Below, in pieces: positions 17,561-46,466 of a stretch of 64,000 bases of DNA. The stretch covers positions 248,001 to 312,000 of the forward strand of contig NZ_JAQQTF010000018.1 of assembly GCF_028561275.1 (NCBI RefSeq). The letters are read 5' to 3'. Under the pieces are notes generated by a model that saw nothing but the letters and a program-made list of their open reading frames with translations, was not told the DNA's origin and did not search any database. Within the stretch, counting starts at the first letter, position 1; the number at the start of each line of letters is the position of its first letter. The position numbers and the translations under genes are program-made. The DNA comes from Aureisphaera galaxeae (lineage in GTDB: Bacteria > Bacteroidota > Bacteroidia > Flavobacteriales > Flavobacteriaceae).

Positions 17561-17911
17561 ATGGCCAAGAAAAACACACCTCAAGACCCTCAACCCTCAT
17601 TGGATTCTTCTTCTAAAATCGAGGCGATTAAGAACCTCATTTTTGGTGAAAACATAGAACAGTATGACAGTCAGTTCGACACCTTAAAAAAGGAGATTGA
17701 CAAGCGAAAGAAGGAACTGGAACACTATATAGACGAAGTTCGTAACGAGCTCATGCAGTCCATCGATTCATTAAGCACCGATGTGAATATTAGAATTACC
17801 GATCTAGAGGATAACCTTCAAGCAAAAACCAATGCCCTTTCCGAAGAAAAATTGGATCGGAAAACGTTGGGGAAACTTCTTATCGATTTGGGCGAAAAAA
17901 TAAGCTCTTAA
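17561..17911 (+). CDS. Small coiled-coil protein, first gene of the GTPase cluster
   Basis: A 116-residue soluble protein. After a short Pro/Ser-rich start, residues ~20-70 and ~70-110 are long charged helices with heptad character (FDTLKKEIDKRKKELEHYID, IRITDLEDNLQAKTNAL). No signal peptide. I do not recognise a named family. It lies 13 bases before the next coiled-coil gene and appears to be the first member of a six-gene same-strand cluster containing two Ras-like GTPases. A scaffold or adaptor role is plausible but inferred from context only. A short inverted repeat (17522-17543, arms of 9 with one mismatch) lies just upstream. Confidence 0.65.
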   Translation: MAKKNTPQDPQPSLDSSSKIEAIKNLIFGENIEQYDSQFDTLKKEIDKRKKELEHYIDEVRNELMQSIDSLSTDVNIRITDLEDNLQAKTNALSEEKLDRKTLGKLLIDLGEKISS

Positions 17912-17924
17912 AATACATTCTACC

Positions 17925-18746
17925 ATGGTAGAGGAGGAAGAAGACAAGCTAAAATTGCTTCGTGAAATCCTGTTGATGGACGACAGGGAAGTCGCGAGTG
18001 CGGTAAGCCAGCGTCTGGACAAGATTTCCGACACCATTGAAAAAAGGGAAAAGCTAACCCAAAAGATCGATCCCATTTTAGAAGATCGATTGCAGGAATT
18101 TGTAGAAAGTATCCCATCCCGTTTGGGTCCGGTCATCACGGAAACCCTTCAGAAACAAATACAAGAATCCAAAGATGAAGTTGTGGAAGCGCTCTATCCC
18201 ATCATGGGTAAAATGATAAAACGCTATGTGCAGAACGAAATCGCCCGTCTTTCAGAAAACATCAACAAAAAAGTTAACAACACCTTTTCCTTCCAGGCTT
18301 TGAAGCGAAAGCTTCAGGCTATGTTTACGGGGGTAAAGGAAAGCGATCTCATTCTTAGTGAAGCCAATCCCCCTATTTTGAATGAGATATTTGTCATTGA
18401 AAAAGGTTCGGGCATTTTGCTGGGTAATTTCAGTAAAACAGAAACCTTGGACAAAGACATGGTCTCGGGCATGCTAACAGCCATTAAAAGCTTCGTAGAA
18501 GATGCTTTTTCCGCCGGCGCCCAAAACCTAGAGGCCATAGAATACGAACTCTACACCATTCACATCCAAAACTTTTTCAGCTATTACATTGCGGCGGTGG
18601 TTTCTGGAAATTACACCCGCAGTTTTGAAAGTAAGATCGAAAACAAATTATTAACCCTTTCCAAAAAACTATCCCCTAAGGTTTCTACCCTCACACGGGA
18701 GGAAATCGACTCGTTTTTGCGTGAATTTTTCAAAAAATGGAAATAA
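17925..18746 (+). CDS. Coiled-coil protein with longin/roadblock-like C-terminal domain
   Basis: A 273-residue protein without a signal peptide. Residues 1-~135 are helical: an acidic start, then DEVVEALYPIMGKMIKRYV and a Phe-rich segment (NTFSFQALKRKLQAMFTGV). Such segments also occur in proteins annotated as OmpA-related, but no OmpA domain is present here. Residues ~150-250 read as a mixed alpha-beta domain: strand pair (LNEIFVIEKGSGILLGNFS), helix (DKDMVSGMLTAIKSFVED), strands (NLEAIEYELYTIHIQ, YYIAAVVSG), helix (FESKIENKLLTLSKKL). This order fits the roadblock/longin fold of small-GTPase partners such as MglB. It overlaps the first GTPase by 10 bases. Likely a GTPase regulator or effector (inference). 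Confidence 0.6.
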   Translation: MVEEEEDKLKLLREILLMDDREVASAVSQRLDKISDTIEKREKLTQKIDPILEDRLQEFVESIPSRLGPVITETLQKQIQESKDEVVEALYPIMGKMIKRYVQNEIARLSENINKKVNNTFSFQALKRKLQAMFTGVKESDLILSEANPPILNEIFVIEKGSGILLGNFSKTETLDKDMVSGMLTAIKSFVEDAFSAGAQNLEAIEYELYTIHIQNFFSYYIAAVVSGNYTRSFESKIENKLLTLSKKLSPKVSTLTREEIDSFLREFFKKWK

Positions 18747-19228
18747 CAAAAAAGGTTGTCCTTTTGGGACAATTTGGTGTTGGAAAAACATCGATTGCAA
18801 GACGTTATTTAATGGATATTTTTGAACAGGACTATGTCCCCACCTTGGGCGTTCAAATACGAAAGAAGGTCTTGGAATTGCCTTCGGGAAGAAAACTATC
18901 CATGATCATTTGGGACTTGGAAGGATTTTCGTCTGTGTCCAAAACCCGAGGGTCTTATTTATTGGGTTCGCATGCATTCATCTATGTGTTCGATGTAACG
19001 CGGCCTTACACCTATCAAGGAATTAACAAGGATATCGAGTTTATAAAAGAACGCTATCCCAAGGTAATCCTCGAAATTGTTGGGAACAAAATAGATTTGG
19101 AAGAAGAAGAAAACATAAACCCTATTATGAAGAAAAAGAAGATCGATGTCACAGGCTATGTGAGTGCCAAAACCGGAGAAGGAATAGCAGCGCTATTTAC
19201 ACGACTTACCAAAAAACTGGAGTCATGA
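18737..19228 (+). CDS. Ras-like small GTPase 1
   Basis: A 163-residue single-domain GTPase of the Ras/Rab type. G1 is GQFGVGKTS (11-19), G2 Thr36 in VPTLGV, G3 WDLEG (Asp60-Gly63), G4 NKID (117-120), G5 SAK (143-145). The residue after the DxxG Gly is Phe64, where Ras and Rab have the catalytic Gln. No lipidation motif or signal is seen. It starts inside the previous gene (10-base overlap) and overlaps the next by ATGA, so the genes are translationally coupled. It is clearly paralogous to the GTPase at 19898. The role is unknown; a spatial or signalling switch like MglA is inference. Confidence 0.8.
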   Translation: MEITKKVVLLGQFGVGKTSIARRYLMDIFEQDYVPTLGVQIRKKVLELPSGRKLSMIIWDLEGFSSVSKTRGSYLLGSHAFIYVFDVTRPYTYQGINKDIEFIKERYPKVILEIVGNKIDLEEEENINPIMKKKKIDVTGYVSAKTGEGIAALFTRLTKKLES

Positions 19229-19827
19229 ACAAGCAAAGCACATTCTTTTCGAAGAAGATCCAAGAAATCCATGCCAAGCCCTCAGGCGAGATTTTCTTTA
19301 GCAGCAATACCATTTTCGATATTTCCGAAAATGAAGACCTCTACTCCCTACACCCTTTTTTCGAAAGTCTGAAACACGAGTTGGAAAAGGAAGGCATCAT
19401 GGAAAACAGCCTAGCGTTCCCCTGTGTTCAGTTAGAAGTGCATGGCAAAGAAGCCATTTGCGATGTCACCATAAAAAAGGAGTTGGATTTCCTGGCTATA
19501 TTATTATTCGACTATTCGCAGCATTACGAACATTTGCACGAGGCGGCCCAGGAGAAGAAAAGCGCTATGCTTTTAGAGAAAGAGCATGAACTTAAATTGA
19601 AGTATTCTTCAGAAAAAGCGGCTTATTTGGACTTCATCCGTGAACGGCTAGATACCAAGCTTATTTCGGAAATGGAAGAGGCAGTTCGCAAAATCGAACA
19701 GCTGAAACGCACGTCCCTTACCCCAGAGCAACGCCAAAACCTTCAGGAAATAGAAGAGATCATTGGAGGATTTCACCTTAAGGCCATTCAAGTGCGGGAA
19801 GGTTTGGATTTCGATTTTGATACATAA
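19225..19827 (+). CDS. Sensor-like protein paired with GTPase 1
   Basis: A 200-residue soluble protein. Residues ~1-105 form a PAS-like alpha-beta domain: SLHPFFESLKHELEKEG, FPCVQLEVHGKEAICDVTI, and a final strand LAILLFDYSQHYEHLHE. Residues ~105-200 are coiled-coil and helical. The N-terminal domain is clearly homologous to that of the histidine kinase at 20385 (FHPFFEGLQAFLPTLEED, FPCVNLEIEGSRKIVDIEI, TILLFDFTEHYDASH), so this protein looks like the kinase with its catalytic part replaced by a coiled coil. It overlaps GTPase 1 by 4 bases. A 70-base gap and a new promoter-like element follow. Confidence 0.65.
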   Translation: MNKQSTFFSKKIQEIHAKPSGEIFFSSNTIFDISENEDLYSLHPFFESLKHELEKEGIMENSLAFPCVQLEVHGKEAICDVTIKKELDFLAILLFDYSQHYEHLHEAAQEKKSAMLLEKEHELKLKYSSEKAAYLDFIRERLDTKLISEMEEAVRKIEQLKRTSLTPEQRQNLQEIEEIIGGFHLKAIQVREGLDFDFDT

Positions 19828-19866
19828 TTAATCGACATAGTTTCTTTTAAACTCTAATGATTTAAA

Positions 19867-19874
19867 TATCTTTA
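19867..19874 (+). promoter_or_regulatory. -7-like element upstream of GTPase 2
   Basis: TATCTTTA resembles the Bacteroidota -7 box TAnnTTTG with one mismatch and lies 23 bases before the ATG at 19898, inside the only sizeable gap (70 bases) of the GTPase cluster. It may give the GTPase 2-kinase pair its own promoter. Confidence 0.4.
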
Positions 19875-19897
19875 CAACCATAATTTTTCAATTTTAA

Positions 19898-20383
19898 ATG
19901 GCCCAAACCAAAAAAATAGTACTCCTCGGGCATTTTGGGGTTGGTAAAACCAGTTTACTGCGTCGTTATGTAGACGATGCCTTTAACGAAGACTATCTCG
20001 TAACCGTAGGTGTACACGTAAAGAAAAAAGACATCTCCTTGGAGAATGAAACCGTCACCCTGATCATCTGGGATATAGAAGGAAATACGTCTATAGACAA
20101 AGCCCGGAAATCCTATTTGTTGGGTACGCACGGTTTCGTGTATGTGTTCGATGTGACCCGGCCAGAGACCTACGAACAGTTGGAGAGCGAGTTTTCCTAT
20201 TTAACGGAAAAATTCCCGAACGTTCCGGTGAGCTTGGCGGGAAATAAAGCAGATTTGTTTGATAGTGAGTTTACCAAATCCTTTTTCAAGGATCCTATTT
20301 TCGAGAATTGCTTTTTCACCAGTGCGAAAACCGGGAATACGGTAGAAGACCTCTTCAAGGATATTGCGGTTAAAACCACCTAA
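19898..20383 (+). CDS. Ras-like small GTPase 2
   Basis: A 161-residue GTPase paralogous to GTPase 1: G1 GHFGVGKTS (11-19), G2 Thr36 in LVTVGV, G3 WDIEG (Asp59-Gly62), G4 NKAD (116-119), G5 SAK (142-144). Both copies share a distinct stretch, SYLLGTHGFVYVFDVTRP here and SYLLGSHAFIYVFDVTRP in the first. The position of the Ras catalytic Gln is Asn63. No lipid anchor motif. It ends 1 base before the histidine kinase gene, so the two are coupled. The pairing GTPase plus sensor-domain protein is thus repeated twice in the cluster. Confidence 0.8.
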   Translation: MAQTKKIVLLGHFGVGKTSLLRRYVDDAFNEDYLVTVGVHVKKKDISLENETVTLIIWDIEGNTSIDKARKSYLLGTHGFVYVFDVTRPETYEQLESEFSYLTEKFPNVPVSLAGNKADLFDSEFTKSFFKDPIFENCFFTSAKTGNTVEDLFKDIAVKTT

Positions 20384-20384
20384 C

Positions 20385-21896
20385 ATGAGCCTAAGCAGTT
20401 TAAAATCTGAAATTGCCCACAAACGTATACAGGAAATATCGGTTGCCAAAGACGGCACCATCATAGATAGCGATGAGGCTCTTTTTCCCTTTCCCAAAGG
20501 AAAAACCATCGCAGCATTTCATCCCTTTTTTGAAGGATTACAAGCATTTCTCCCTACCCTAGAAGAGGACACCAATTTCCCTTGTGTAAATCTAGAAATA
20601 GAGGGTTCCCGGAAAATTGTGGACATCGAAATTCTGAATAAGGGCAACGATGTCACCATTCTTTTGTTCGATTTTACAGAACATTACGACGCTTCCCATC
20701 CCTTGGTGCAGGAAAAGAACGAAGTTTCCATTGCAAAGAGTAAGTTGGAGTTTGACAAGCGATTGCTGGAAGCCAAGGAAAATTTTAAAAATGGATTCTT
20801 GTCCAACCTCAACCACGAAATCCGAAACCCGCTGAATAGCATGCTCGGGTTCTTGGAACTTTTGGGAGAAACAAAGTTGGACTACGAACAATATGAAACG
20901 CTTAAGGTAATTCGCAAAGCCGGAACACATGTAAAGACATTGATGGAAGATATGCTGGATATTTCTAAAATCGAAAGAGGTATCATTACCAAAAAACATG
21001 TCAATTTCCACTTGGGATATATCCTAGCCAACATTCAGAATCATTACGATCTAAAATATGGAGGCAAAAAGATAGAGTTTATCATTGCCACCGAAGAACA
21101 GATGCCCAAGACCTTTATTGGGGATCCCATTAGGTTGAACCAGATACTTTTCAATTTATTGGAAAATGCCTTCAGAAATACAGAACAAGGAGCTGTAACG
21201 CTGGATGTCTCTCATGAAAATGTAGACAAGAAAATGGCCAAAGTCGTTTTCACCGTAAGTGATACGGGCCGAGGCATTGCGGAAGAGGATCTATCGAAAG
21301 TATTCGACTCCTATTTCCAACTTAAACTGAAAAAGGATAAGCCCTTGGGCGAAGGATTGGGTCTTAAGATTGTTAAGGATCTCGTAGCGCTACTAGAAGG
21401 ATCCGTTTCCGTAAGTAGCGAGGAAGGCAAAGGAACTACCTTTGTTTGTGAAATCCCGTTCGAAAAACGTGTGTCTAAGAGGGAAAAGAAAACCGTAAAA
21501 AAAGGGACGGGTATTTTCCAGAGCCGACGTATTCTTATTGTTGAAAATGACCCTACGGCACAAATGCTCTTCATGAAAACCTTTTTGAACAATGAAAAAG
21601 GATATGTGATCGAAATGGCCAATAATGCAGAACATATGTTCTCAATTTTGGCAAAGAAGAAATACGATCTTATTATCCTGAAAAAGGCACTCCCCGATGT
21701 AAAGGCGGCCGAATTGCTGAAGGTTTTGAAAGGGGATTTCGAAAATCAGAAAAGAAAGATTCCGGTATTAATGGCCAGTGGAAGTACGCTCATAAATGAG
21801 CAGCAGGAAATGCTAGACGCTGGTGTCGATGCCTTTTTGGCAAAACCGTACACAAAAAAAGAGCTTTTCAAAGTCATTGAAAAGCTCATGGGATAA
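20385..21896 (+). CDS. Hybrid histidine kinase with GTPase-cluster sensor domain and degenerate receiver
   Basis: A 503-residue cytosolic kinase. Residues 1-~105 are the PAS-like domain shared with 19225-19827; 105-135 is a helical linker. The H-box is NLNHEIRNPLNSMLGFLELL (His144), followed by N-box LFNLLENAFRNT, G1 DTGRGI and G2 GEGLGLKIV. A linker rich in Lys (361-375) leads to a receiver domain at ~382-503. In the receiver the phospho-acceptor Asp is replaced by Lys433 (YDLIILKKALPD), and one of the acidic pair is Asn388 (VENDP), while Lys487 in LAKPY and Ser465 remain. The kinase should autophosphorylate His144, but the receiver cannot accept phosphate normally. The ATG at 20385 is chosen because it follows GTPase 2 by 1 base. 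Confidence 0.85.
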   Translation: MSLSSLKSEIAHKRIQEISVAKDGTIIDSDEALFPFPKGKTIAAFHPFFEGLQAFLPTLEEDTNFPCVNLEIEGSRKIVDIEILNKGNDVTILLFDFTEHYDASHPLVQEKNEVSIAKSKLEFDKRLLEAKENFKNGFLSNLNHEIRNPLNSMLGFLELLGETKLDYEQYETLKVIRKAGTHVKTLMEDMLDISKIERGIITKKHVNFHLGYILANIQNHYDLKYGGKKIEFIIATEEQMPKTFIGDPIRLNQILFNLLENAFRNTEQGAVTLDVSHENVDKKMAKVVFTVSDTGRGIAEEDLSKVFDSYFQLKLKKDKPLGEGLGLKIVKDLVALLEGSVSVSSEEGKGTTFVCEIPFEKRVSKREKKTVKKGTGIFQSRRILIVENDPTAQMLFMKTFLNNEKGYVIEMANNAEHMFSILAKKKYDLIILKKALPDVKAAELLKVLKGDFENQKRKIPVLMASGSTLINEQQEMLDAGVDAFLAKPYTKKELFKVIEKLMG

Positions 21897-21914: not shown

Positions 21915-22340
21915 TTATTTTTTGTTCAATAAGTATCTGTAGTCTTCCAAATCCAAACCTCCGTTGAAGATTTCGATAGAGCGCTTTATTAATTTAGCAG
22001 CCAACTCCTCGGTATATCCTAATCCGATGGCATAACGCTCCAAAAGATCACGTTCTTCGTCGTCCAACACTTGATCGGCATAAATCATCTTGAACAAATC
22101 CAACATACGCTCCAAGCGCTTATCGGCCGAGTTGGGCGGATTAAGCGGGTATCCCGTAGGGTTTTTTAGGATTTCGACATACTTGGATTCGCTAATGTTC
22201 AACTTCGTAGCAAAGCGTTTTAGCAATTCCTCTTCGGGTTCACTAATTACCCCATTTGCTGACGCAATATTTACGATGGAAGCAAAATGCCCTATATTAC
22301 TATTGCGTTCTCCGCTCTTAAATAAATCTGTGAATGACAT
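21915..22340 (-). CDS. TerB family protein
   Basis: A 141-residue soluble, all-helical protein with the repeat organisation of TerB/DjlA-type domains. NIGHFASIVNIASANGVISE and 'LDLFKMIYADQVLDDEERDLL' carry the acidic metal-binding patterns (Asp/Glu after each helix). TerB was named from tellurite resistance, but these domains are widespread in metal- and stress-related membrane-linked complexes. It converges on the histidine kinase with 18 bases between the stops and is not part of that cluster by orientation. Confidence 0.8.
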   Translation of the reverse strand: MSFTDLFKSGERNSNIGHFASIVNIASANGVISEPEEELLKRFATKLNISESKYVEILKNPTGYPLNPPNSADKRLERMLDLFKMIYADQVLDDEERDLLERYAIGLGYTEELAAKLIKRSIEIFNGGLDLEDYRYLLNKK

Positions 22341-22457: not shown

Positions 22458-23483
22458 ATGACAAAACCTCTCCTCGTTTTCAATTCCAAAGGGATTTATT
22501 GCAAACAGGCCGATGTGTATATAGACGCGTGGCGACCTGTGGAGAAGTGCATAGTTACCCATGGTCATTCCGACCATAGTAGAAGGGGACATAAACAATA
22601 TATTACCCACCATAACAACATCCCCATCATTAAACATCGGTTGGGAGACATTACCGTTTCGGGGAAGGAATGGGGAGAAACTTTTACCATAAATGGAGTC
22701 ACCTTTTCCTTGCATCCCGCAGGACACATCGTAGCATCCTCCCAAGTACGGGTGGAATACAAAGGAGAAGTTTGGGTTTTTACTGGCGACTACAAAATTG
22801 AAAATGATGGATTGTCCACGCCCTATGAACCCATTAAGTGTCATACCTTCATTACCGAGTGCACCTTTGGTCTCCCCGCATTTAAATGGGAACCTCAGGA
22901 TGATGTCTTCAATGAAATCAATGGCTGGTGGGCGAGAAACAAGGATGAGGGTCGCACCTCTTTACTTTTCGGATACAGTTTGGGAAAGGCCCAACGCCTC
23001 CTGAAACATCTGGACACTTCCATTGGCAAGATCTATACCCATGGAGCGGTGGAACAAATGACCCAAGTGCTTCGCGAACACTATGACTTACCTCCTACCG
23101 AACTTATCACAGCAAACACGAAAAAAGAGGATATCCTTGGCAATATCGTAGTGGCACCGCCTAGCGCACAGGGCAGTTCCCTCATGAGGAAAATAGGACC
23201 CAATGTAACAGCTAGTGCTAGTGGATGGATGACCTTTCGTGGGGCACGGAGAAGAAGGGCTTTGGATCGTGGATTTGTACTCAGCGATCATGCCGATTGG
23301 GATGGGCTCTTGCAGGCGGTTAAAGAAACGGGATGTGAAAAGGTGATCGCCACCCATGGTTATACCGAAATATTCTCACGCTATCTGCGGGAAGAAATGG
23401 CGTTGGACGCCCGTACCGAAAGCACCCAATACGAAGCAGAACAAAACGAAGCCGAATCGAAAAAAGAGGAGGGCGCATCATGA
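22458..23483 (+). CDS. Ligase-associated DNA exonuclease (MBL fold)
   Basis: A 341-residue metallo-beta-lactamase/beta-CASP-like nuclease. Metal residues are visible in THGHSDHSRRGHKQYITHHN (HxHxDH), HPAGHIVASSQV and TGDYKIE; 'DRGFVLSDHADWDGLL' and the late ATHGYTE are the usual C-terminal block. It overlaps the ligase gene by 4 bases and is first of a four-gene operon (exonuclease, ligase, helicase, PdeM) known in many bacteria as a DNA repair set. The C-terminus is a short Glu-rich tail. Function is by family and operon order. Confidence 0.85.
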   Translation: MTKPLLVFNSKGIYCKQADVYIDAWRPVEKCIVTHGHSDHSRRGHKQYITHHNNIPIIKHRLGDITVSGKEWGETFTINGVTFSLHPAGHIVASSQVRVEYKGEVWVFTGDYKIENDGLSTPYEPIKCHTFITECTFGLPAFKWEPQDDVFNEINGWWARNKDEGRTSLLFGYSLGKAQRLLKHLDTSIGKIYTHGAVEQMTQVLREHYDLPPTELITANTKKEDILGNIVVAPPSAQGSSLMRKIGPNVTASASGWMTFRGARRRRALDRGFVLSDHADWDGLLQAVKETGCEKVIATHGYTEIFSRYLREEMALDARTESTQYEAEQNEAESKKEEGAS

Positions 23484-25072
23484 AACGCTTTGCCGAACTC
23501 ATAAAGCAATTGGACAGTACCAACAAAACGAATGAAAAAGTAGGTGCCCTTACCGAATATTTCTTGAATGCTCCTGACCCTGACAAACTTTGGACCATTG
23601 CTATCCTCTCTCATCGACGTCCAAAACGTCCTGTAAATACCACTTTGCTTCGTGAATGGGCCACCGAACTGAGCCATATTCCATTATGGTTATTCGAAGA
23701 GAGTTATCACATTGTCGGGGATCTGGCCGAAACCATTGCCTTGATTGTTCCCTCCTCAAAGGGAAAGACCGACAAGTCCCTTTCTGAGTTCATTGCCGAA
23801 ATCATCGAACTACGGGAACTTCCTGAATCAGCCAAAAAAGCCTACCTGCATGAAAATTGGCTTTCACTGAATTACTACGAACGTTTTGTATTCAATAAGA
23901 TCATCACCGGGGGATTCCGTATTGGTGTGAGCCAAAAACTTATGACACGAGCCCTGTCCAAAGCCACGGGAATAGACGAAGATATTTTGGCCTATAAACT
24001 CATGGGGAGTTGGACGCCACCTACGACCACTTTTCAGCAACTTATTTTGGAGGAACACGAGAGCGATTACCTCAGTAAGCCCTATCCCTTTTACTTGGCG
24101 TATGCGGTAGAAGACGATTTCCAGGAGCAACTGGGAGACATTCAAGATTGGAGTTTCGAACACAAATGGGACGGTATTAGAGCGCAAGTCATTATACGAA
24201 ATGATGAAGTCTTTGTTTGGTCACGAGGCGAAGAATTGGTGACCGATAAGTATCCTGAATTCCAAAAGTTCTTGGAAGTGGTTCCCAACGGAACCGTATT
24301 GGACGGCGAAATACTGCCTTTTCCTGAAGGAAGGATTGGCGATTTCAATCAGTTACAAACCCGAATTGGCCGAAAGAATGTATCCAAAAGCCTCCTGCAG
24401 AAAATTCCTGTGATCCTCACTGCCTATGACCTATTGGAATGGAATGGTGAGGATATTCGTTCGTGCCCTTTTGCGGAAAGAAGAAAATTGTTGGAGCAGC
24501 TTATTTCCAAAGTCAATTCAAAAGAAAACCATCTATACCTTAGCGGTAGTATGCAGTTCGAAACCTGGGAAGCGGCTGCTTCCGAACGAGAACGTGCTCG
24601 CGAAAAACGAAGTGAGGGCTTAATGATAAAACGAAAAGACTCCCCTTATTTAGTGGGTCGAAAAAAGGGTGATTGGTGGAAATGGAAGACCAATCCCTTT
24701 ACCATAGATGCTGTACTCACCTATGCTATGCGCGGACATGGAAGAAGGGCCAATCTCTTTACCGATTACACTTTTGGCCTGTGGCATGAAGGGCAATTGG
24801 TGACCTTTGCCAAGGCTTATTCTGGGTTAACGGATGCAGAATTGAAGGAAGTAGATGCTTGGATTAAAAAGAACACTTTGGAACGTTTTGGACCGGTTCG
24901 AAGTGTAACTCCTTTCCATGTTTTCGAAATTGCTTTTGAAGGCATCGCCAAAAGTAGCCGTCATAAGAGTGGAGTCGCTACTCGATTTCCCAGAATTTTA
25001 CGCTGGCGAAAGGACAAGCCTATTGAAGAAGCCAACACCCTACAAGACCTCAAAAACCTCATCCCAGAATGA
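23480..25072 (+). CDS. ATP-dependent DNA ligase
   Basis: A 530-residue ligase. The catalytic lysine is Lys229 in FEHKWDGIRAQV (motif I, KxDG); GTVLDGEILPF is motif III-like, SEGLMIKRKDSPY motif IV-like, and RKKGDWWKWKTNP motif V. Residues 1-~200 are the N-terminal DNA-binding domain and the end is an OB fold. It joins nicks with ATP, unlike the NAD-dependent LigA, and belongs to the type associated with an Lhr-like helicase and the exonuclease upstream. Overlaps both neighbours by 4 bases. Confidence 0.9.
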   Translation: MKRFAELIKQLDSTNKTNEKVGALTEYFLNAPDPDKLWTIAILSHRRPKRPVNTTLLREWATELSHIPLWLFEESYHIVGDLAETIALIVPSSKGKTDKSLSEFIAEIIELRELPESAKKAYLHENWLSLNYYERFVFNKIITGGFRIGVSQKLMTRALSKATGIDEDILAYKLMGSWTPPTTTFQQLILEEHESDYLSKPYPFYLAYAVEDDFQEQLGDIQDWSFEHKWDGIRAQVIIRNDEVFVWSRGEELVTDKYPEFQKFLEVVPNGTVLDGEILPFPEGRIGDFNQLQTRIGRKNVSKSLLQKIPVILTAYDLLEWNGEDIRSCPFAERRKLLEQLISKVNSKENHLYLSGSMQFETWEAAASERERAREKRSEGLMIKRKDSPYLVGRKKGDWWKWKTNPFTIDAVLTYAMRGHGRRANLFTDYTFGLWHEGQLVTFAKAYSGLTDAELKEVDAWIKKNTLERFGPVRSVTPFHVFEIAFEGIAKSSRHKSGVATRFPRILRWRKDKPIEEANTLQDLKNLIPE

Positions 25073-27522
25073 ATCAGACCGAACTCATACAATGGGCGGA
25101 AGGCTGGTTTCAACAGCAGGAATGGCAGGCATTCCCTTTTCAGAAAAAGACCTGGAAAGCCTTTTTACAGGGAAAGCATGGATTACTAAACGCTCCCACG
25201 GGAAGTGGAAAAACCTATGCCCTATGGGTTCCTATTGTACTTAATTACATCAAGAAAAATCCGGAATACGCTACAAAAAAGCCCAAAGGGCTCAAAGCCA
25301 TTTGGATTACTCCCCTTAGGGCCTTGTCAGTAGAAATTAAACAGGCCGCCCAGCGCTTTGCGGATGAAATGGGTACTGGCCTAACGGTAGGGATACGTAC
25401 TGGCGATACTTCGCAAGCAGAACGAGCAAAGCAAAAAAGGCAAATGCCCGACCTGCTTATCACAACACCAGAGAGTCTTATGCTATTACTTGCTTCTAAG
25501 GGATATGATAAGATGTTTAAAACACTCACGGCCGTGGTGGTGGACGAATGGCACGAACTTTTGGGAAGCAAGCGTGGCGTACAAATGGAATTGGCCTTAT
25601 CCCGTCTAAAAACCATCTCTACCGATTTACGCATATGGGGAATTTCCGCTACCATTGGGAATTTGGAAGAAGCCCAACAAGTACTTTTCGGAATGGACGA
25701 TCCTATTCAGAAGCAATCTGTCCTCATACGGGCGAGACATAAGAAAAAGGTGCGGGTACACTCTATGATTCCGAAGGAAATGGAGACCTTCCCTTGGAGG
25801 GGGCATATCGGATTGCATCTATTAGAGGATTTAGTAAAAATCATCGAGAAAAGTAAGACGACAATTATTTTCACCAATACGCGCGGACAATGCGAAATCT
25901 GGTTTCAGAAATTACTGGAAAAACATCCCGAATTGGCAGGAGAAATAGCCATGCACCATGGCAGTATTTCCAAGGAAACCCGATTGTGGGTAGAACAGGC
26001 CATTCGCAACGAATCACTTAAGGCAGTGGTAGCCACTTCCAGTTTGGATTTAGGAGTCGATTTTGCTCCTGTAGAAACCATTGTCCAGATAGGAGGCCCT
26101 AAAGGAATTGCCAAATTCTTACAACGCGCCGGACGAAGCAATCACCGCCCTGGAGAAACCTCGGTCATTCATTTTTTACCCACCCATGCGTTGGAATTGG
26201 TAGAAGCTTCGGCCTTGAAACGAGCCGTTAAAGAAAACGTGATGGAAGCACGAACCCCTTTCTTGCTTAGTTTCGATGTGCTCATTCAGTATTTGGTGAC
26301 ACTTGCTGTGAGTGATGGTTTTATCCCAGACGAAATTTTTAAAGAAGTAAAAAACACCTTTTGCTACCAAGGTATTACCGAAGAGCAATGGCAATGGTGC
26401 CTCAACTTCATCACATTGGGAAGTCAAAGTCTCAAGGCCTATGACGAATACAAACGGGTAGAAGTGAAAGCGGGGCTTTTCAAGGTGGAAAGCAGAAGAA
26501 TTGCCATGATGCATCGATTATCCATCGGCACAATTGTAAGCGACGCCATGATGATGGTGAAATATGTAACGGGTGGATTTATAGGAACCATAGAAGAATG
26601 GTTCATTGGAAAAATGAAGCCAGGCGACAGTTTTGTCTTTGCAGGACGTACCCTCGAATTGGTTCGTCTTCGACAAATGGTAGCACAGGTTCGAAGATCG
26701 AGTAAGCGCACTTCTAAAGTGGTAAGTTTTATGGGTGGCCGATTGCCCCTTTCTTCCCAAATGAGTAAGATCCTAAGGGAAGAGCTGCAAAACGAAGTGG
26801 AGGCCCTTAGAACTAGAGAATTGAAAGCCATGGATCCCATTTTCGAAAGACAGCAATGGGAATCTGTAGTGCCGAGAGCTCATGAATTTTTGATCGAAAC
26901 CTTTGCCACTAGAGAAGGATATCACGCGCTTTTCTATCCGTTTGAAGGAAGAAAAGTACACGAGGCCATGAGTAATTTATTGGCTTATAGAATGAGTCTC
27001 CTATCACCCATTAGTTTCAGTTTGGCCTATAACGATTATGGGTTTGAGCTGTTAAGCGATCAGGAGATTGACATTCAATCGTTGCTGGATAATGATCTGC
27101 TCACGACCCAAGATGCCCTTTCCGATTTGGCCAAAGGAGTAAACTCAAGTGAGCTGGCCCGACGGAAGTTTCGCGATGTAGCCGTAATTAGTGGACTTGT
27201 ATTTCAAGGGTATCCCAACAAGATCATAAAGACCAAACATTTGCAAAGCAATAGCCAATTGTTGTTCGATGTATTTCGGGATTACGAGCCCGACAATTTA
27301 TTATACCAGCAAGCCTATACCGAAATGTATGAGCACGAGTTGGAGGTAGGGCGATTGCAAAAAGTTCTAGAACGTATTGCCACTCAAGACATTCTCTGGA
27401 AACAATGCGATAAACCGACACCGTTTAGCTTTCCCATCATTACCGATCGACTGCGAAGCAAATTAACCTCCGAAAAGTTGAGTGATCGTATTAAAAAGAT
27501 GAAATTGCAGTTCGATAAATGA
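25069..27522 (+). CDS. Ligase-associated DExH-box helicase (Lhr-like)
   Basis: An 817-residue superfamily 2 helicase. Walker A is NAPTGSGKTYA, motif Ia TPLRALSVEI, motif II VVDEWHELL (DEWH), motif III SATIGN, and motif VI FLQRAGRSNHRPGE. The Lhr core follows (winged helix and beta-barrel region). Lhr proteins unwind RNA:DNA and DNA and load in the 3'-5' direction. It is the third gene of the exonuclease-ligase-helicase-PdeM operon, overlapping both neighbours by 4 bases, so the four products probably act together in repair of DNA damage. Confidence 0.9.
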   Translation: MNQTELIQWAEGWFQQQEWQAFPFQKKTWKAFLQGKHGLLNAPTGSGKTYALWVPIVLNYIKKNPEYATKKPKGLKAIWITPLRALSVEIKQAAQRFADEMGTGLTVGIRTGDTSQAERAKQKRQMPDLLITTPESLMLLLASKGYDKMFKTLTAVVVDEWHELLGSKRGVQMELALSRLKTISTDLRIWGISATIGNLEEAQQVLFGMDDPIQKQSVLIRARHKKKVRVHSMIPKEMETFPWRGHIGLHLLEDLVKIIEKSKTTIIFTNTRGQCEIWFQKLLEKHPELAGEIAMHHGSISKETRLWVEQAIRNESLKAVVATSSLDLGVDFAPVETIVQIGGPKGIAKFLQRAGRSNHRPGETSVIHFLPTHALELVEASALKRAVKENVMEARTPFLLSFDVLIQYLVTLAVSDGFIPDEIFKEVKNTFCYQGITEEQWQWCLNFITLGSQSLKAYDEYKRVEVKAGLFKVESRRIAMMHRLSIGTIVSDAMMMVKYVTGGFIGTIEEWFIGKMKPGDSFVFAGRTLELVRLRQMVAQVRRSSKRTSKVVSFMGGRLPLSSQMSKILREELQNEVEALRTRELKAMDPIFERQQWESVVPRAHEFLIETFATREGYHALFYPFEGRKVHEAMSNLLAYRMSLLSPISFSLAYNDYGFELLSDQEIDIQSLLDNDLLTTQDALSDLAKGVNSSELARRKFRDVAVISGLVFQGYPNKIIKTKHLQSNSQLLFDVFRDYEPDNLLYQQAYTEMYEHELEVGRLQKVLERIATQDILWKQCDKPTPFSFPIITDRLRSKLTSEKLSDRIKKMKLQFDK

Positions 27523-28163
27523 CCGAGAACGTTCAAATAGCCAATCAGAATTTTGTGTTGCATCCTTCGGGCGCTGCCCTTTGGAAGGAGAAATCTACCT
27601 TGCTTATTGCCGACGTCCATTTGGGAAAGATTGCCCATTTCAGAAAAAATGGACTGGCGGTTCCCCCTCATATTGCGGACACCAATTTTGAAAGATTGAA
27701 TACAGTTATTTCGCAATTACAACCCAAATCCATCTACTTTTTGGGTGATCTATTTCACAGTTATCTCAATGCCGAATGGTTCGTTTTTGAAGAGTGGGTG
27801 CAGCAAACACCTTGCGATATGATTTTAGTGCAGGGCAATCACGATATCATTGCGGATCATAAATTTGAAGCCTTGGGGATCCCTGTGAAAGAAGAGCTGG
27901 AAGAAGGACCTTTTTGCTTTACACATCATCCCGAGGATATAGAATCGGCCTTCAATATTTGCGGTCATATTCATCCTGCCGTTCGTATGCGCGGTGGTGG
28001 CGGACAAGCGGCTACTTTATCCTGTTTCTTTATTTCGGAAAATCAACTTATCCTTCCCGCTTTTGGTATCTTTACAGGGAAGCACCGACTCACCCCAACG
28101 AAGGAGGATCGTGTGTACGCCATCGTAGAAAACGAAGTGGTCTGTGTTTCGAATACCCGATAA
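27519..28163 (+). CDS. pdeM: Ligase-associated endonuclease PdeM
   Basis: A 214-residue calcineurin-like phosphoesterase. The metal motifs are IADVHLGKIAHFRKNG (D-x-H), YFLGDLFHS (GD), LVQGNHD (GNHD), and FNICGHIHPAVRMRG (GHxH). PdeM is the metallophosphoesterase partner of the Lhr/ligase repair operon. The start overlaps the helicase stop by 4 bases. The stop is 4 bases before the aminotransferase start, so that gene may also be cotranscribed. Length is normal. Confidence 0.85.
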   Translation: MTENVQIANQNFVLHPSGAALWKEKSTLLIADVHLGKIAHFRKNGLAVPPHIADTNFERLNTVISQLQPKSIYFLGDLFHSYLNAEWFVFEEWVQQTPCDMILVQGNHDIIADHKFEALGIPVKEELEEGPFCFTHHPEDIESAFNICGHIHPAVRMRGGGGQAATLSCFFISENQLILPAFGIFTGKHRLTPTKEDRVYAIVENEVVCVSNTR

Positions 28164-34086: not shown

Positions 34087-35211
34087 TTATTTCACGAATT
34101 TCTTTGAAATGGCAATGTTCCCTTTCGATAGTTCCAATACGTAGGTTCCTGAAGGCAATCGGGAAACATCTATCTCTGAATATATCTGACCTTGCAATAC
34201 GTCCATCTTTTGAGAGAGTAAACGACTTCCAAGGGTATCGTACACAAATACTTGATACGCCCCAGCAGGTAACTTTCCTTGCAACATGAGCGCATCTTGG
34301 GGCGGGTTTGGAAATAATTTCAGTTCGTTTATTATAATTCGATTGTCATTGGCCCCTAAGGTTACCCCATCTATGATGCGAAGGTTCTTAGGCTGAGCAT
34401 CACTAATGTACAAGCGGTCGTTGGCTTCATCGGCCAATATTCCGTTGGGAAGATTGAATGTGGCATCTTCTAATGGGCCGTCATCACCGCCAGCAACACT
34501 CCCAGCAAAAAGAACTACCTCACCAGAAACAGGATCGATTCGGTATATTTTGTGTTCACCCAATTGTGTGGCAAATAGAAATCCTCCTTTGGCCGTGAGA
34601 AATCCTAAAAAGTTACTACCTGCAGCCGTCGCTGGAAGCTGAGCGATTTCAACAAGGGTATCATAATTATCGAGTCTAAAGATCTTGCGATCATTAAAAT
34701 TTCCAATATAAGGAGTGTTCCCAATATAAGCAATACCCGCTGGACCGTTGAGCGGCGATCCAGAGACCAAAACCTCCACGTCTCCAATATCTGCATCCAA
34801 CAGTTTAATTCTATTGGCTTGGTATTCTACCACCAACATATAGCCATCCATATCTGGCGTTTCCTTAATACCCGTGGGAGTAGTGAATCCCGTGAAAGTG
34901 TCCAATAAATTCCCTGAAGTATCGTACATGTATATCGTATTACCCGTATGATCGCAAACAAACACCTCATCGTCGGAGTTCACCCCAATTCCATTGGGAT
35001 TGGAAAACCCTGTTTGAAAAACGCTTACCTCTCCGGTGGTGGGATTGTATTTATATACGGTATCCCCTCCGAAATCCGAGCCATAGATATTCCCTTGGGA
35101 GTCGATCCCCAAGCCATCGGTTATCGTTCCCTCGGTTACGGTAGAAACGGTTTGGGCTTTTAGCCAGCTAATGGATACGAATGAAATTAGTAGTATCAAT
35201 TTTGAAGTCAT
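34087..35211 (-). CDS. T9SS-secreted NHL/SMP-30-type beta-propeller protein, copy 1
   Basis: A 374-residue secreted protein. Signal peptide ~1-19 (LILLISFVSISWLKAQ); a six-bladed propeller with NHL/SMP-30-like repeats (GLGIDSQGNIYGSDFGGDTV, SNPNGIGVNSDDEVFVCDHT, 'NLPNGILADEANDRLYISDA'); and a C-terminal type A sorting domain (LFPNPPQDALMLQGKL to NIAISKKFVK) for type IX secretion. It is paralogous to 36494-37618 (same length, same repeats). Such propellers bind carbohydrate, peptide or lactone ligands; the real target is unknown. The downstream gene in each copy of the unit is a regulator with an N-terminal membrane domain, so a signal from the secreted protein to the regulator is conceivable. 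Confidence 0.85.
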   Translation of the reverse strand: MTSKLILLISFVSISWLKAQTVSTVTEGTITDGLGIDSQGNIYGSDFGGDTVYKYNPTTGEVSVFQTGFSNPNGIGVNSDDEVFVCDHTGNTIYMYDTSGNLLDTFTGFTTPTGIKETPDMDGYMLVVEYQANRIKLLDADIGDVEVLVSGSPLNGPAGIAYIGNTPYIGNFNDRKIFRLDNYDTLVEIAQLPATAAGSNFLGFLTAKGGFLFATQLGEHKIYRIDPVSGEVVLFAGSVAGGDDGPLEDATFNLPNGILADEANDRLYISDAQPKNLRIIDGVTLGANDNRIIINELKLFPNPPQDALMLQGKLPAGAYQVFVYDTLGSRLLSQKMDVLQGQIYSEIDVSRLPSGTYVLELSKGNIAISKKFVK

Positions 35212-35288
35212 AGTCTCTATTTTTAAAAATTTTAAACGAAACTATGACCGGACACCCTTCCAATCGACACATTGTACACAATGGCACC

Positions 35289-36404
35289 TTATGCGACGCT
35301 TTTTTTCTTAATGTAAGAAGAAGGAGGTTCCCCTTTTTGGGCTTTGAAGACTTTATTGAAATTGGATTTGGAATTAAAACCTACTTCCATGGCTAAAGCC
35401 AGTAGGGTTTTCTTGAGGTGTTCGCCGTTGGCTACTTTTTCCAAAAACCGTTCAATGCGCATTTTGTTGATGTAATCACTAAAACTACTGTGATAGACAT
35501 TATTGAGGAACCACGAAAGATTATTGGGGGTGGTATGGAGTTTTTCCGAAAGAGTTTTTAGGGTAATCGCAGGATCCAAAAACACAGATTCTTCGTGCAT
35601 AAAATACTGGAGTCGTTTCTTGAGCTGTTGAATTTCCTCCGGTTTTAAACGGGCCCTGACCTCTTTGGGTTTTGGTAAGGGAATCCTGAAAATTTCTGGC
35701 TGACGTAAGCTGTAGTATCCCACGGCATAGATGAATACGGGTATGGAAATCCATAGGGATAAGTAACTTAGATAAGGAATGTCATAAAAGAAAAAGTTAC
35801 TGTTCAAAAAACTGAAAACCCAGAACAATAGGCACAATCCCAAACTCCCCAGAAATACCTTTAGAAACTTAGATACTTGTTGGGGATTGGAAAACTCATC
35901 GGTTTTTAGTCGATTGAATTTTTTGAAAACACCAGCGGAAATGATCCAATAATAGGCAAAGGAAAGTAATCCTAACAACTCAAAACCGAAATAGAAATAA
36001 TTGATCCTTCCCGTCTGGTGCCATTCTTGCAACGTTTCCCTTGAAAGACTGAAATACCAGAAAAAGTAAATAACATGTATAATGGTGGGAATGTAATGTG
36101 GCCATGAAACCGTGAATGCAGGATTTTCCTGAAATGTCAACCGCCGTACATACATATAGATGAGTGGGCCAATTAGGAAAATGACCGAGTCCACAAAAAG
36201 TGCCACATACCATATCCATTCCACTTTAAAACGGAATAAGGATAGCTTTCCTAAGAGCATTAGGACAGAGATGCTCAATATCCAAACCAAAACAGCATTC
36301 GCTTGCTTATTCCGTTCTTTCAGCAATCGGAGGGATAGTGCCAAAAATATCCCTTGGGAGAGTCCCGCAATTAAAACAACATCCAAAAAAGTAAACTCGT
36401 ACAC
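35289..36404 (-). CDS. 7TM-AraC family transcriptional regulator, copy 1
   Basis: A 371-residue membrane-bound transcription factor. About seven membrane helices in residues ~1-230 (VVLIAGLSQGIFLALSLRLL, FSYYWIISAGVF region) are followed by a cytoplasmic AraC/HTH_18 domain at ~270-371 with EKLHTTPNNLSWFLNNVYHS and GFNSKSNFNKVFKAQKGEPP. Such regulators sense an extracellular or membrane signal. The gene lies upstream of T9SS protein copy 1 on the same strand (77 bases), and both may be cotranscribed. It is paralogous to 37701-38816, with identical length. Two short palindromes lie upstream. Confidence 0.85.
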   Translation of the reverse strand: MYEFTFLDVVLIAGLSQGIFLALSLRLLKERNKQANAVLVWILSISVLMLLGKLSLFRFKVEWIWYVALFVDSVIFLIGPLIYMYVRRLTFQENPAFTVSWPHYIPTIIHVIYFFWYFSLSRETLQEWHQTGRINYFYFGFELLGLLSFAYYWIISAGVFKKFNRLKTDEFSNPQQVSKFLKVFLGSLGLCLLFWVFSFLNSNFFFYDIPYLSYLSLWISIPVFIYAVGYYSLRQPEIFRIPLPKPKEVRARLKPEEIQQLKKRLQYFMHEESVFLDPAITLKTLSEKLHTTPNNLSWFLNNVYHSSFSDYINKMRIERFLEKVANGEHLKKTLLALAMEVGFNSKSNFNKVFKAQKGEPPSSYIKKKSVA

Positions 36405-36435
36405 ACGCTATGGATTAATACCGCAAAAGTAGTAT

Positions 36436-36474
36436 TTACCTTTGGAGGTAAGGTGTAATTGTATACAAGTATAC
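36436..36474. promoter_or_regulatory. Two palindromes upstream of AraC regulator copy 1
   Basis: TTACCTTTGGAGGTAA (36436-36451) is a perfect 6-4-6 inverted repeat. GTATACAAGTATAC (36461-36474) is a perfect palindrome built of two GTATAC units. Both lie 32-70 bases before the start of the regulator (minus strand). They could be operators for its autoregulation or parts of the promoter. No long T-run follows, so they do not read as a terminator. Confidence 0.45.
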
Positions 36475-36493
36475 TTTTTAAGGACGTCGATTT

Positions 36494-37618
36494 TTACTTT
36501 TTGATCATTCTTTGGGTCACAGTGCTTGCCCCATCAGAAATCTTTACCAAATACACGCCCGCTTGCAAATTGGAAATATTCAATTCTTCAGAAATCCGGT
36601 TTCCAAAAGAACTAATCGACATTTCAGACAGCAACTGGCCAGAAATCGTATACATTGATACTGTATAGGTTCCTTCATTCAGATCGCCTTCCAATACCAA
36701 ACGATCTTGGGCTGGATTGGGAGACAATCTCAATATGCTGTTCTGCAATTGGGATTCTTCCGTGCTTAATATTCCTGAAATAATCCGAAGGTTTTTCGGC
36801 CCGAAATCCGTGACATACATGGTATCCCCAGCATCATTAAATGCGATTCCGTTGGGCAAAGAAAATGTGGCTTCAGAAATATCACCGTCCATACTCCCTT
36901 GAGTACTTCCCGTAAATACGGTGTATACATCAACAAGATCGGGATCTACACAATAGATTTTGTGACTTCCTAAAACCGTACCCCATATTTTCCCTTGGGC
37001 ATAGGTAATAAAGCCAAGATTGGGGAAAGCCCCTGCTTCTGAAGGTAGTTGTGCGATATACTCCAAATCCCCATTACCCAAAACCCTGAAAATCTTTCGA
37101 TCCGTGTAATTCCCAACGTACAGGGTGCCGTTTCCATCCATGGCCAATCCCACAGGTCCATTAAGGTCTGCATCACTGGAGAAAGTGGTAATGGTGCCAT
37201 CGGTTTCCAAAATATTGATAGTATTACCAATGAATCTTGTAAAATACATGGTTTCTTCATCCAGGAACTTAATGATTCCCGAAGGATGCCCACTAATGGG
37301 GTAGGAATCGATTTCAGTACCGCTACTATCGAATCTGTAAATCGTATTGCCTTGACCATCGCATACGTACAATTCGTCGTTGGAATTAAACTCTAGTCCG
37401 TTTGGGGTATTGAGACCTGTTACAAAAGATTCTACATCGCCCGCGGGGGTAAACTTAAAAACGGTATCTCCCGTATATTGGGAGCAATAAATGTTCCCGT
37501 TGCTATCCAAGACAATAGCATCATCGGGCGTCCCCTGTGAAAAAGTGGTTACGGTCTGTGCATGGGCCCATAGGGAAGCCAACGCACACATACAAAAAGT
37601 GATAATTTTTAATTTCAT
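36494..37618 (-). CDS. T9SS-secreted NHL/SMP-30-type beta-propeller protein, copy 2
   Basis: A 374-residue paralogue of 34087-35211. It has a signal peptide (MKLKIITFCMCALASLWAHA), propeller blades (AIVLDSNGNIYCSQYTGDTV, NTPNGLEFNSNDELYVCDGQ, 'FSLPNGIAFNDAGDTMYVTD') and a type A C-terminal sorting domain (LRLSPNPAQDRLVLEGDL to STVTQRMIKK). Blades and order correspond one to one with copy 1, but the residues have diverged widely, so the duplication is not recent. The AraC regulator copy 2 lies directly upstream on the same strand (82 bases). Confidence 0.85.
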   Translation of the reverse strand: MKLKIITFCMCALASLWAHAQTVTTFSQGTPDDAIVLDSNGNIYCSQYTGDTVFKFTPAGDVESFVTGLNTPNGLEFNSNDELYVCDGQGNTIYRFDSSGTEIDSYPISGHPSGIIKFLDEETMYFTRFIGNTINILETDGTITTFSSDADLNGPVGLAMDGNGTLYVGNYTDRKIFRVLGNGDLEYIAQLPSEAGAFPNLGFITYAQGKIWGTVLGSHKIYCVDPDLVDVYTVFTGSTQGSMDGDISEATFSLPNGIAFNDAGDTMYVTDFGPKNLRIISGILSTEESQLQNSILRLSPNPAQDRLVLEGDLNEGTYTVSMYTISGQLLSEMSISSFGNRISEELNISNLQAGVYLVKISDGASTVTQRMIKK

Positions 37619-37700
37619 AATCCTGAAAGTTTAATGTTTCTACAAACCTACTTTCAGGAAGGGTGCGAATCGACCGTGTGGATACAGACAAACGTAAAGA

Positions 37701-38816
37701 TTAAGCCGCCCGATGTTTTTTTATGTAGTTGCTAGGGGTATCGTTCATGGTAAGCTTAAATGCTTTGTTGAACGTGGACTTGGATTTAAATCCTACATCG
37801 AACGATAAGGCCAAAATAGTATGCTGAAGATGTTCTTGGTTTTCTACCTTTTTAATGAACTCATTTATTCTGTGGGTATTGATAAAATCATAGAAAGTGG
37901 TTTGATAGACGTTGTTGAGCAACCAAGAAAGATTGTTACTCGAGGTTTGCAATCTTTTGGAAACTTCGGTCAAGGTAAGCTCGCTTTCCAAATAGATCTT
38001 CTCGTCCTTCATTAATTGATCAAGCCTCTTCTGAAGTAAGGACGACTCCGTTTCTGTTAGTCTCTTTTTCTGAACCTTGGTCTCCTTTTCTTGAATTACG
38101 CGAAACAGATCGGGTTGTTTTAAACTGTAATATCCAATCACGAAGATGAAGGCTGGAATCACAGCCCAGACCAAATCGTAGCTGAAAAAATTGAAAAAAC
38201 GATCGAACAGCGAATTGTTCACAAAACCAAGGGCCCATATCACGATGATAAGTAGAATGGCCGATAAGAAATAGGTAAGGTAACTCACCGGATTCTGGTC
38301 GAAGGAAAAGGATTCTTTGGATGCTTTTTTAAACTTTCTGAGCATTCCGAAGGACTTTATTAAATAGATTAGATTGGATCCTATGGCCGAAACGAAAATT
38401 AAATTAAAGAGCGTTTTAAAGGTCCCTTTCAAATAGGCTTCATAATAGGTATCTGGATTATATACTATAAAAAGGGTTAAGGTCAATACCAAAAAAGAGG
38501 CTCCCGGTAAAAAATGCCAGAGTGGAAATCGTTTGTTCTCCTTATTCTGAAATAACAATCGCGAGGTATACAGAAAAAGAAGTGGGCCAAATAGATACAG
38601 GGGAATATCGAATATCCAAGAATAAAAGAATGTGGCTTTGGTAAGGAAACGTACCATCAATACCCTTCCAATAAGCATGTGGGTAGCGATCCCGATAAGT
38701 AATGCCAGAATGGAATTGGCTCTTTTATTAGCCTGCGGAATCCGTAAAATGGTAAGCATAAGGAAGATTCCTTGGCTAATTCCGATGAGTATAATGACGT
38801 CGATCAGCTCAAACAT
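37701..38816 (-). CDS. 7TM-AraC family transcriptional regulator, copy 2
   Basis: A 371-residue paralogue of 35289-36404. The ATG at 38816 was chosen because it gives MFELIDVIILIGISQGIF, matching the start of copy 1 (MYEFTFLDVVLIAGLSQGIF) and the same length. Seven membrane helices (residues ~1-230) precede the HTH_18 domain (SKRLQTSSNNLSWLLNNVYQ, GFKSKSTFNKAFKLTMNDTP). The unit regulator plus T9SS propeller is therefore present twice in tandem. Each regulator may control its own downstream propeller gene, but that is inference. Confidence 0.85.
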   Translation of the reverse strand: MFELIDVIILIGISQGIFLMLTILRIPQANKRANSILALLIGIATHMLIGRVLMVRFLTKATFFYSWIFDIPLYLFGPLLFLYTSRLLFQNKENKRFPLWHFLPGASFLVLTLTLFIVYNPDTYYEAYLKGTFKTLFNLIFVSAIGSNLIYLIKSFGMLRKFKKASKESFSFDQNPVSYLTYFLSAILLIIVIWALGFVNNSLFDRFFNFFSYDLVWAVIPAFIFVIGYYSLKQPDLFRVIQEKETKVQKKRLTETESSLLQKRLDQLMKDEKIYLESELTLTEVSKRLQTSSNNLSWLLNNVYQTTFYDFINTHRINEFIKKVENQEHLQHTILALSFDVGFKSKSTFNKAFKLTMNDTPSNYIKKHRAA

Positions 38817-38924
38817 TCGTGGCAGGATTGTTTCCTGTAAAAGTACCAGTTTTAACGAAATTGAACGTACGTCTGGGTACAAACACACGCTATAAACATA
38901 AATGAAGGGGACTTTAACATACCT

Positions 38925-46386: not shown

Positions 46387-46466
46387 GTTTTCTAATTTTT
46401 TAAAGAACCACCCCCCAGGTCTCAACTCCCCAGATTCGACCCAGAGAGCGGTTCAATAATTATTGA

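Follow-up and report, generated by a model that had tools for sequence, protein, structure and literature searches.

A putative Group 1 Rup small-GTPase operon with a predicted longin-like partner protein in Aureisphaera galaxeae

The locus and its genes

The window analysed here is a stretch of 64,000 nucleotides from the flavobacterium Aureisphaera galaxeae (RefSeq assembly GCF_028561275.1, contig NZ_JAQQTF010000018.1, positions 248,001 to 312,000 of the forward strand), and between its positions 17,561 and 21,896 it carries a run of six genes for two Ras-like GTPases, a histidine kinase and three further proteins. Judged from motifs and gene neighbourhood, this is a signalling operon of the Group 1 Rup family of bacterial small GTPases, in which one of the partner proteins is predicted to end in a longin domain. 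A first-pass annotation, made from the sequence alone, had reported six adjacent genes on the forward strand with short gaps or overlaps, and all six open reading frames (ORFs) are indeed present:

17561..17911, +: CC, a coiled-coil protein of 116 amino acids (aa), the first core gene (from the ORF list)
17925..18746, +: UNC, 273 aa, long N-terminal helices and then a longin-like domain (ORF list, AlphaFold)
18375-18743, +: the predicted longin-like domain of UNC, residues ~151-273 (AlphaFold)
18737..19228, +: GT1, a Rab-like (Rup) GTPase, clade-specific extra copy, G3 motif WDLEGF (Pfam Ras, 3.2e-26)
19225..19827, +: N1, 200 aa, a PAS domain (~1-110) and a degenerate DHp helical hairpin (~112-200) with no phospho-acceptor His
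19898..20383, +: GT2, a Rab-like (Rup) GTPase of the conserved core, G3 motif WDIEGN (Pfam Ras, 5.1e-31)
20385..21896, +: HK, 503 aa, PAS, HisKA, HATPase_c and receiver domains (Pfam)
20709..20711, +: codon of Gln109 of HK (in QEKNE), a Gln shared by the Rup-linked outputs examined

From these coordinates the successive spacings from CC through HK are +13, -10, -4, +70 and +1 nt, the start of HK being most likely the ATG at 20385, 1 nt 3' of GT2, and not the TTG at 20364 of the mechanical ORF. The two GTPases had been called paralogous and Ras-like, which agrees with their 45% identity and with the match of both to Pfam Ras; encoded as they are with a histidine kinase (HisKA, HATPase_c, Response_reg), they also bear out the proposal of a GTPase switch tied to a kinase. 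The matches of CC to Pfam all lie below cut-off and are mostly to helical or coiled-coil families. UNC is single-copy in the 4.59 Mb host assembly, and the N-terminal domain of N1, used as a query against the host genome, finds two places, both inside the operon.

An alignment of UNC was used to scan a genome collection of 84,980 species. From the 420 relatives that this gave, 80 loci were retained, making 81 with the window. The order CC, UNC, GTPase, PAS-kinase on one strand is seen in 79 of them, and the remaining two run off their contigs; a CC homologue lies upstream of UNC in 81/81, and among the 79 complete loci the distance is at most 50 nt in 76. Among named loci, those with the most similar UNC belong to the Flavobacteriaceae, and in even samples that include the host's own genome UNC occurs in 10 of 60 family genomes and, at the level of the phylum, in 14 of 395. 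Nonsynonymous change is lower than synonymous change in all six genes in the nine locus pairs tested, most weakly in the tail of N1. This constraint, together with the conserved order of the core, which the first-pass annotation had put forward as a check on its reading, implies that the six-gene set is not a chance arrangement.

The GTPases and their family

Group 1 Rup GTPases were defined in the 2014 genome analysis by Wuichet and Sogaard-Andersen (PMC4316618). The portions of that account drawn on here describe GTPases that lack the Gln of the G3 motif and are encoded next to a cytoplasmic coiled-coil protein and a protein with an unknown domain (“Unc”), often followed by a transmembrane (TM) helix and OmpA, while the output protein, usually a kinase or cyclic-di-GMP enzyme, has an invariant Gln in its N-terminus. 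The same portions state that experimental characterisation was lacking for every Rup member as of 2014, and propose that the eukaryotic Ras superfamily descends from ancestral Rup GTPases. A literature search found no later paper devoted to Rup; in the later text that it retrieved the family is mentioned briefly, once or twice per paper.

The traits of this group recur in the window, with GTPases that lack the G3 Gln, CC and UNC as neighbours and an output protein with an N-terminal Gln. In an alignment and tree of 90 of the 92 GTPase rows (those below 140 aa being left out), the catalytic G3 Gln is missing from 85, and the window proteins have F (GT1) and N (GT2) in its place, while the G3 Asp, the P-loop Lys and the positions tested in NKxD and SAK are kept in 90/90. 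The structures closest to GT2 among those solved are Rab1 proteins (best E 3.3e-23). By motifs and neighbourhood, with trees that cover the collected loci, the operon is thus a Group 1 Rup small-GTPase signalling operon.

A predicted longin domain in UNC

The product of 17925..18746 had been described as ending in a roadblock/longin-like domain, and this description holds up on the longin side. In an AlphaFold model made from a 45-homologue alignment, the C-terminus of UNC has the topology b1-b2-a1-b3-b4-b5-a2-a3, which is the longin order of strands and helices, and the high Foldseek ranks go to adaptor sigma subunits, Sec22b, and the Rag and Mon1-Ccz1 complexes. Pairwise VIA-align superpositions, all of which span about residues 148-273 of UNC, match it to an adaptor sigma chain (4p6z_S; Z 14.2, root-mean-square deviation (rmsd) 2.3, 115 residues aligned), Sec22b (1ifq_A; Z 14.1, rmsd 2.6, 118), a chain of TRAPPIII-Ypt1 (7kmt_K; Z 12.2, rmsd 2.9, 116), a Lokiarchaeota longin domain (8yqg_A; Z 11.8, rmsd 3.0, 122) and Mon1-Ccz1 with Ypt7 (9rs7_B; Z 11.6, rmsd 3.2, 125). 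At the sequence level, one homologue (locus L116) matches Fuz_longin_1, the model for FUZ, MON1 and HPS1, at E 9e-4 (19.9 bits against a cut-off of 26.1) and Intu_longin_1, the model for INTU, CCZ1 and HPS4, at E 0.051, also below cut-off, both over the central helix.

Several observations weigh against this assignment. The mean pLDDT of the UNC model is a middling 64.7, with block means of about 75 in the C-terminal domain (151-273), and Foldseek gives no E better than 1e-3. No Pfam longin model passes its cut-off in the UNC homologues scanned, and Fuz_longin_1 appears in 2 of 45 and 2 of 19 UNC members, the window protein not being among them. Unrelated families give matches, likewise below cut-off, that equal the longin ones in strength or share the same stretch: DUF445 on the helices of the window UNC (E 5e-4), CheD at its residues 188-245 (E 0.058) and GLTP on the homologue of locus L132 (E 0.017). 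With these on the other side of the balance, we regard the C-terminus of UNC as a predicted longin domain.

In other Bacteroidota families, a hydrophobic helix that is a TM candidate follows the domain in 12 of 12 UNC proteins; six of the 12 were scanned for domains, and every one of the six ends in OmpA, with BON domains as well in two; in the window UNC neither a TM-candidate helix nor an OmpA domain was found. Gene order and the OmpA fusion suggest that UNC corresponds to the Unc domain of PMC4316618, as far as that domain is described in the portions drawn on. Three further loci (L121, L122 and L126) have a coiled-coil protein and UNC, with OmpA shown for L121, and no GTPase was detected there within the 14 kb fetched.

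The output kinase, its PAS domain and Gln109

The proteins encoded after each GTPase had been said to share a PAS-like N-terminus, and N1 and HK do so at 35% identity (E 1.2e-17), AlphaFold predicting a PAS fold for this shared domain. In the helix that comes after the last PAS strand of the model lies Gln109 of HK, which is present in 87/87 kinase rows and which we take to be the invariant Gln of the 2014 logo, so far as the logo is set out in the portions drawn on. It also extends beyond kinases: in a wider set of 25 chosen N-domains, 14 of them flavobacterial from the 81 loci and 11 from further loci, the Gln column is kept in 24/24 readable (ungapped) rows across HK and sigma-54 outputs. 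Three loci of another Bacteroidota family (L117, L118 and L119) encode a Rup GTPase and then a protein with the Gln-bearing N-domain, and in L118 and L119 this output is a sigma-54 activator with PAS and a Fis helix-turn-helix (Pfam), a kind of output that the portions of PMC4316618 drawn on do not name.

In the kinase core of HK, His144 and the N-box Asn are both present; in a census of 85 of the 87 kinases (those of at least 450 aa) the His is found in 83 and the Asn in 85. The receiver tells a different story, since its Asp is replaced by Lys433 in the window and by Lys in 24/24 kinases of the clade around it. Elsewhere it is replaced by Asn in 8/8 tandem second PAS-kinases (in loci L069, L077, L087, L102, L104, L106, L109 and L114), by Ser in 7 kinases and by Ala in 3, and it is kept in 43 of the 85. 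The differing replacements in different groups suggest that the Asp was lost several separate times. On these residues, the HK receiver is classed as a pseudo-receiver.

N1 as a pseudo-kinase and the history of its arm

The first-pass annotation took the 200-aa protein for a coiled-coil protein, a view that gives way here to a PAS domain joined to a degenerate kinase DHp. In a comparison of N1 from 11 of 17 loci with 52 of 79 kinases, chosen for their regular DHp motif, the N1 tail aligns with the kinase DHp at an hhalign probability of 77% and a score of 31.7, whereas none of 30 column shuffles scored above 15.3; neither the coiled-coil protein nor the helices of UNC gave a match to this tail. 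None of the 11 full-length N1 proteins has a phospho-His in the acceptor column, where T, S, N, G, D, E or A stands instead (the N1 of L039 has a His one place past it), and no catalytic domain is found in the 200 aa. Judged by these residues N1 is a pseudo-kinase.

GT1 and this pseudo-kinase form an arm that is seen only in the window's own clade, which comprises 24 loci: 12 have GT1 and N1 (one of them broken), five a stand-alone N domain without GT1, and seven neither. The history of the arm was followed on a locus tree of 38 of the 81 loci. GT1 forms one clade (support 100/99), as do N1 and the stand-alone N domains taken together (96/95, 56 chosen rows), which suggests a single gain and repeated loss. 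A test of whether GT1 arose from GT2 in place gave p-AU 0.102 (8 loci, mostly near-duplicates, left out). The excess of synonymous over nonsynonymous change in the nine locus pairs implies that the arm is under selection where it is intact. The earlier suggestion of two inputs to one output is plausible, with the amendments that the second input is lineage-specific and that its sensor is a pseudo-kinase and not an independent kinase.

Proposed mechanism and its rivals

Our best joint explanation, to which we assign a probability of roughly 0.55, is that of a Group 1 Rup operon in which UNC serves as a longin platform controlling the GTPases, a GTP-bound GTPase acting on the PAS domain sets the kinase, and N1 counters or adapts the response. 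UNC and CC would together form the platform, bind the GTPases and control their nucleotide state, UNC acting most likely as exchange factor or scaffold. The GTP-loaded GTPase would dock on the PAS domain and the Gln-bearing linker helix and so set kinase activity, and HK would then pass its phosphate to a partner encoded elsewhere, since its own receiver has no Asp in this clade. In N1 the PAS domain that it shares with HK sits on a dimerisation hairpin lacking a phospho-His; for that reason N1 is most likely an antagonist or adaptor under the control of GT1, and it would pair with the kinase DHp or compete for the GTPase. The ancestral form would read the envelope through the TM helix and OmpA of UNC, an anchor absent from the window protein; envelope state was probably the ancestral input, since UNC of other families continues through a likely TM helix into OmpA. 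Three points sit less easily with this picture: two stand-alone N domains (that of L059 and the second of the two in L043) carry Ser at the Gln position, the five stand-alone N loci have neither GT1 nor a DHp, and the pairing of N1 with HK is something that we infer.

The explanation nearest to the first-pass annotation, that these are MglA-type GTPases with UNC as a roadblock GTPase-activating protein (GAP) and that the operon sets polarity or gliding, now seems very improbable. MglB (6h5b) and MglC (7ct3) do appear in the Foldseek results for UNC, at ranks 30 and 44, the host carries a GldJ gene, and longin and roadblock folds are related according to the parts of PMC10933270 and PMC3521125 drawn on, which treat longin domains as eukaryotic or archaeal. 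Nevertheless, the conserved Asp of G3 is replaced by Thr in MglA and its homologues (PMC3000849, in the portion drawn on), a Thr that occurs in 0 of the 90 GTPases, all of which keep Asp; the nearest solved structures to GT2 are Rab1, the neighbouring genes are those expected of a Group 1 Rup system, and Robl_LC7 (PF03259) has no match in the host genome at E 0.001 or better, although a very divergent copy could escape this search. GldJ exceeds its cut-off in 59 of the 60 family genomes and UNC is found in 10 of the same 60, the host being counted in both; as GldJ is thus present with or without the Rup system, its distribution gives no reason to link the system to gliding, and the suggested role in polarity or gliding is left without support. 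Closer to the preferred scheme is the idea that UNC is a structural scaffold or effector only, with input entering through a GTPase or the kinase PAS. This we consider possible, if on balance unlikely. In its favour, the top structural matches of UNC are adaptor sigma chains and the longin domain of Sec22b, neither of which is known to act as an exchange factor.

The remaining rivals concern single parts of the circuit. That the PAS domain is itself a GAP, its conserved Gln acting in trans as the missing catalytic residue so that docking on the kinase ends the GTP signal, would fit both the loss of the G3 Gln from 85 of 90 GTPases and the invariance of Gln109, and supply of a Gln in trans has already been suggested (PMC4316618, in the portions drawn on). 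We think it unlikely: five GTPases (in L073, L093, L103, L111 and L113) do possess a G3 Gln, yet the kinases encoded next to them still keep Gln109, which disfavours a catalytic role in trans, and the position of Gln109 in the helix after the last PAS strand suits a signalling switch as well as catalysis. Decay of the GT1-N1 arm, as a duplicate without a role, is a poorer prospect still. Within the clade of 24, GT1 is broken in L050 and absent from 12 more loci, seven of which have no N domain outside the kinase, and the N1 tail evolves fast, with a nonsynonymous proportion (pN) of 0.37 against a synonymous one (pS) of 0.53 in L043-L053. Against this, GT1 and N1 both show less nonsynonymous than synonymous change in 9/9 pairs, the PAS of N1 is slower than that of HK in eight of the nine (the exception being L038-L039), and GT1, a single well-supported clade, has intact G motifs in all 11 full-length copies.

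Genomic setting and other features of the window

A fructose-bisphosphatase cluster lies upstream of the operon in 73 of the 81 loci and an aspartate/amino-acid kinase in 74 (the window copies being named by Pfam). Downstream there is a conserved neighbour that we do not claim as a component:

21915..22340, -: TerB-like gene, convergent with the operon (Pfam TerB, 6.2e-7)

Its cluster is found downstream in 67/81 loci, on the opposite strand in 66 of the 67, and a functional link to the operon is possible.

Beyond this, 22458-28163 holds a metallo-beta-lactamase-like protein (Pfam, below cut-off), an ATP-dependent DNA ligase (Pfam), and a helicase and a phosphoesterase (both by eye), a run that we take to resemble Lhr-type DNA repair operons. 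At 34087-38888 a gene pair occurs twice; by eye, it encodes a membrane protein whose C-terminus is AraC-like and, downstream of that, a secreted 374-aa repeat protein. Two large adjacent ORFs on the reverse strand (769 and 1136 aa) at 44116-49877 have no Pfam match at E 0.001.

Comparison with known systems

The family itself is already known from genome analysis, and in the portions of PMC4316618 drawn on the resemblance to Group 1 Rup covers the Ras-like GTPase without a G3 Gln, the coiled-coil partner, the partner with an unknown domain, often fused to OmpA, and the Gln-bearing output. To these the window adds a second GTPase, a protein of PAS and pseudo-DHp, and a pseudo-receiver, and its UNC has neither TM helix nor OmpA. 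What goes beyond the 2014 account, so far as those portions extend, are the folds now proposed for the unknown domain (longin) and for the output N-terminus (PAS), the sigma-54 outputs in relatives, the pseudo-kinase and the pseudo-receiver. The two fold proposals turn formerly unknown parts into a testable circuit of exchange factor or scaffold, switch and PAS-gated output.

Among bacterial systems, MglA-MglB of Myxococcus likewise joins a Ras-like GTPase to a partner of the roadblock/longin class, but the window differs in its GTPase family, in the prediction of longin rather than roadblock, in the histidine kinase within the operon, and in that no link to gliding is seen. The actinobacterial conservons CvnA-D, as outlined in the portions of PMC4316618 drawn on, also encode a GTPase, a kinase and a roadblock/longin-class protein together; there, however, these are an MglA Group 2 GTPase, MglB and a membrane kinase, and in the window a Rup GTPase, a predicted longin protein and a kinase without a clear TM helix.

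In animal and yeast cells the longin fold handles Rab switches. The eukaryotic pairs of Rab and longin regulator, TRAPP-Ypt1, Mon1-Ccz1-Ypt7 and Fuzzy-Inturned, share with the window a Rab-like GTPase beside a longin-fold protein, here a predicted one, and it is to the longin domains of these systems that UNC has structural and weak sequence matches, whereas the window holds a bacterial operon with a kinase output. If UNC truly loads the GTPases, then the longin-Rab partnership exists in bacteria too. We offer the wider reading tentatively, as one that may well prove wrong: the operon would be a bacterial counterpart of the Rab and longin-regulator pair, whose longin protein, elsewhere spanning cytosol, inner membrane and cell wall, would load GTPases that switch PAS-gated kinases or sigma-54 activators; the pairing would be older than eukaryotes and would extend beyond archaea, and here the second GTPase would drive a counteracting pseudo-kinase. 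The comparison extends a little-studied family of bacterial signalling proteins and makes its possible link to the control of eukaryotic membrane traffic open to test.

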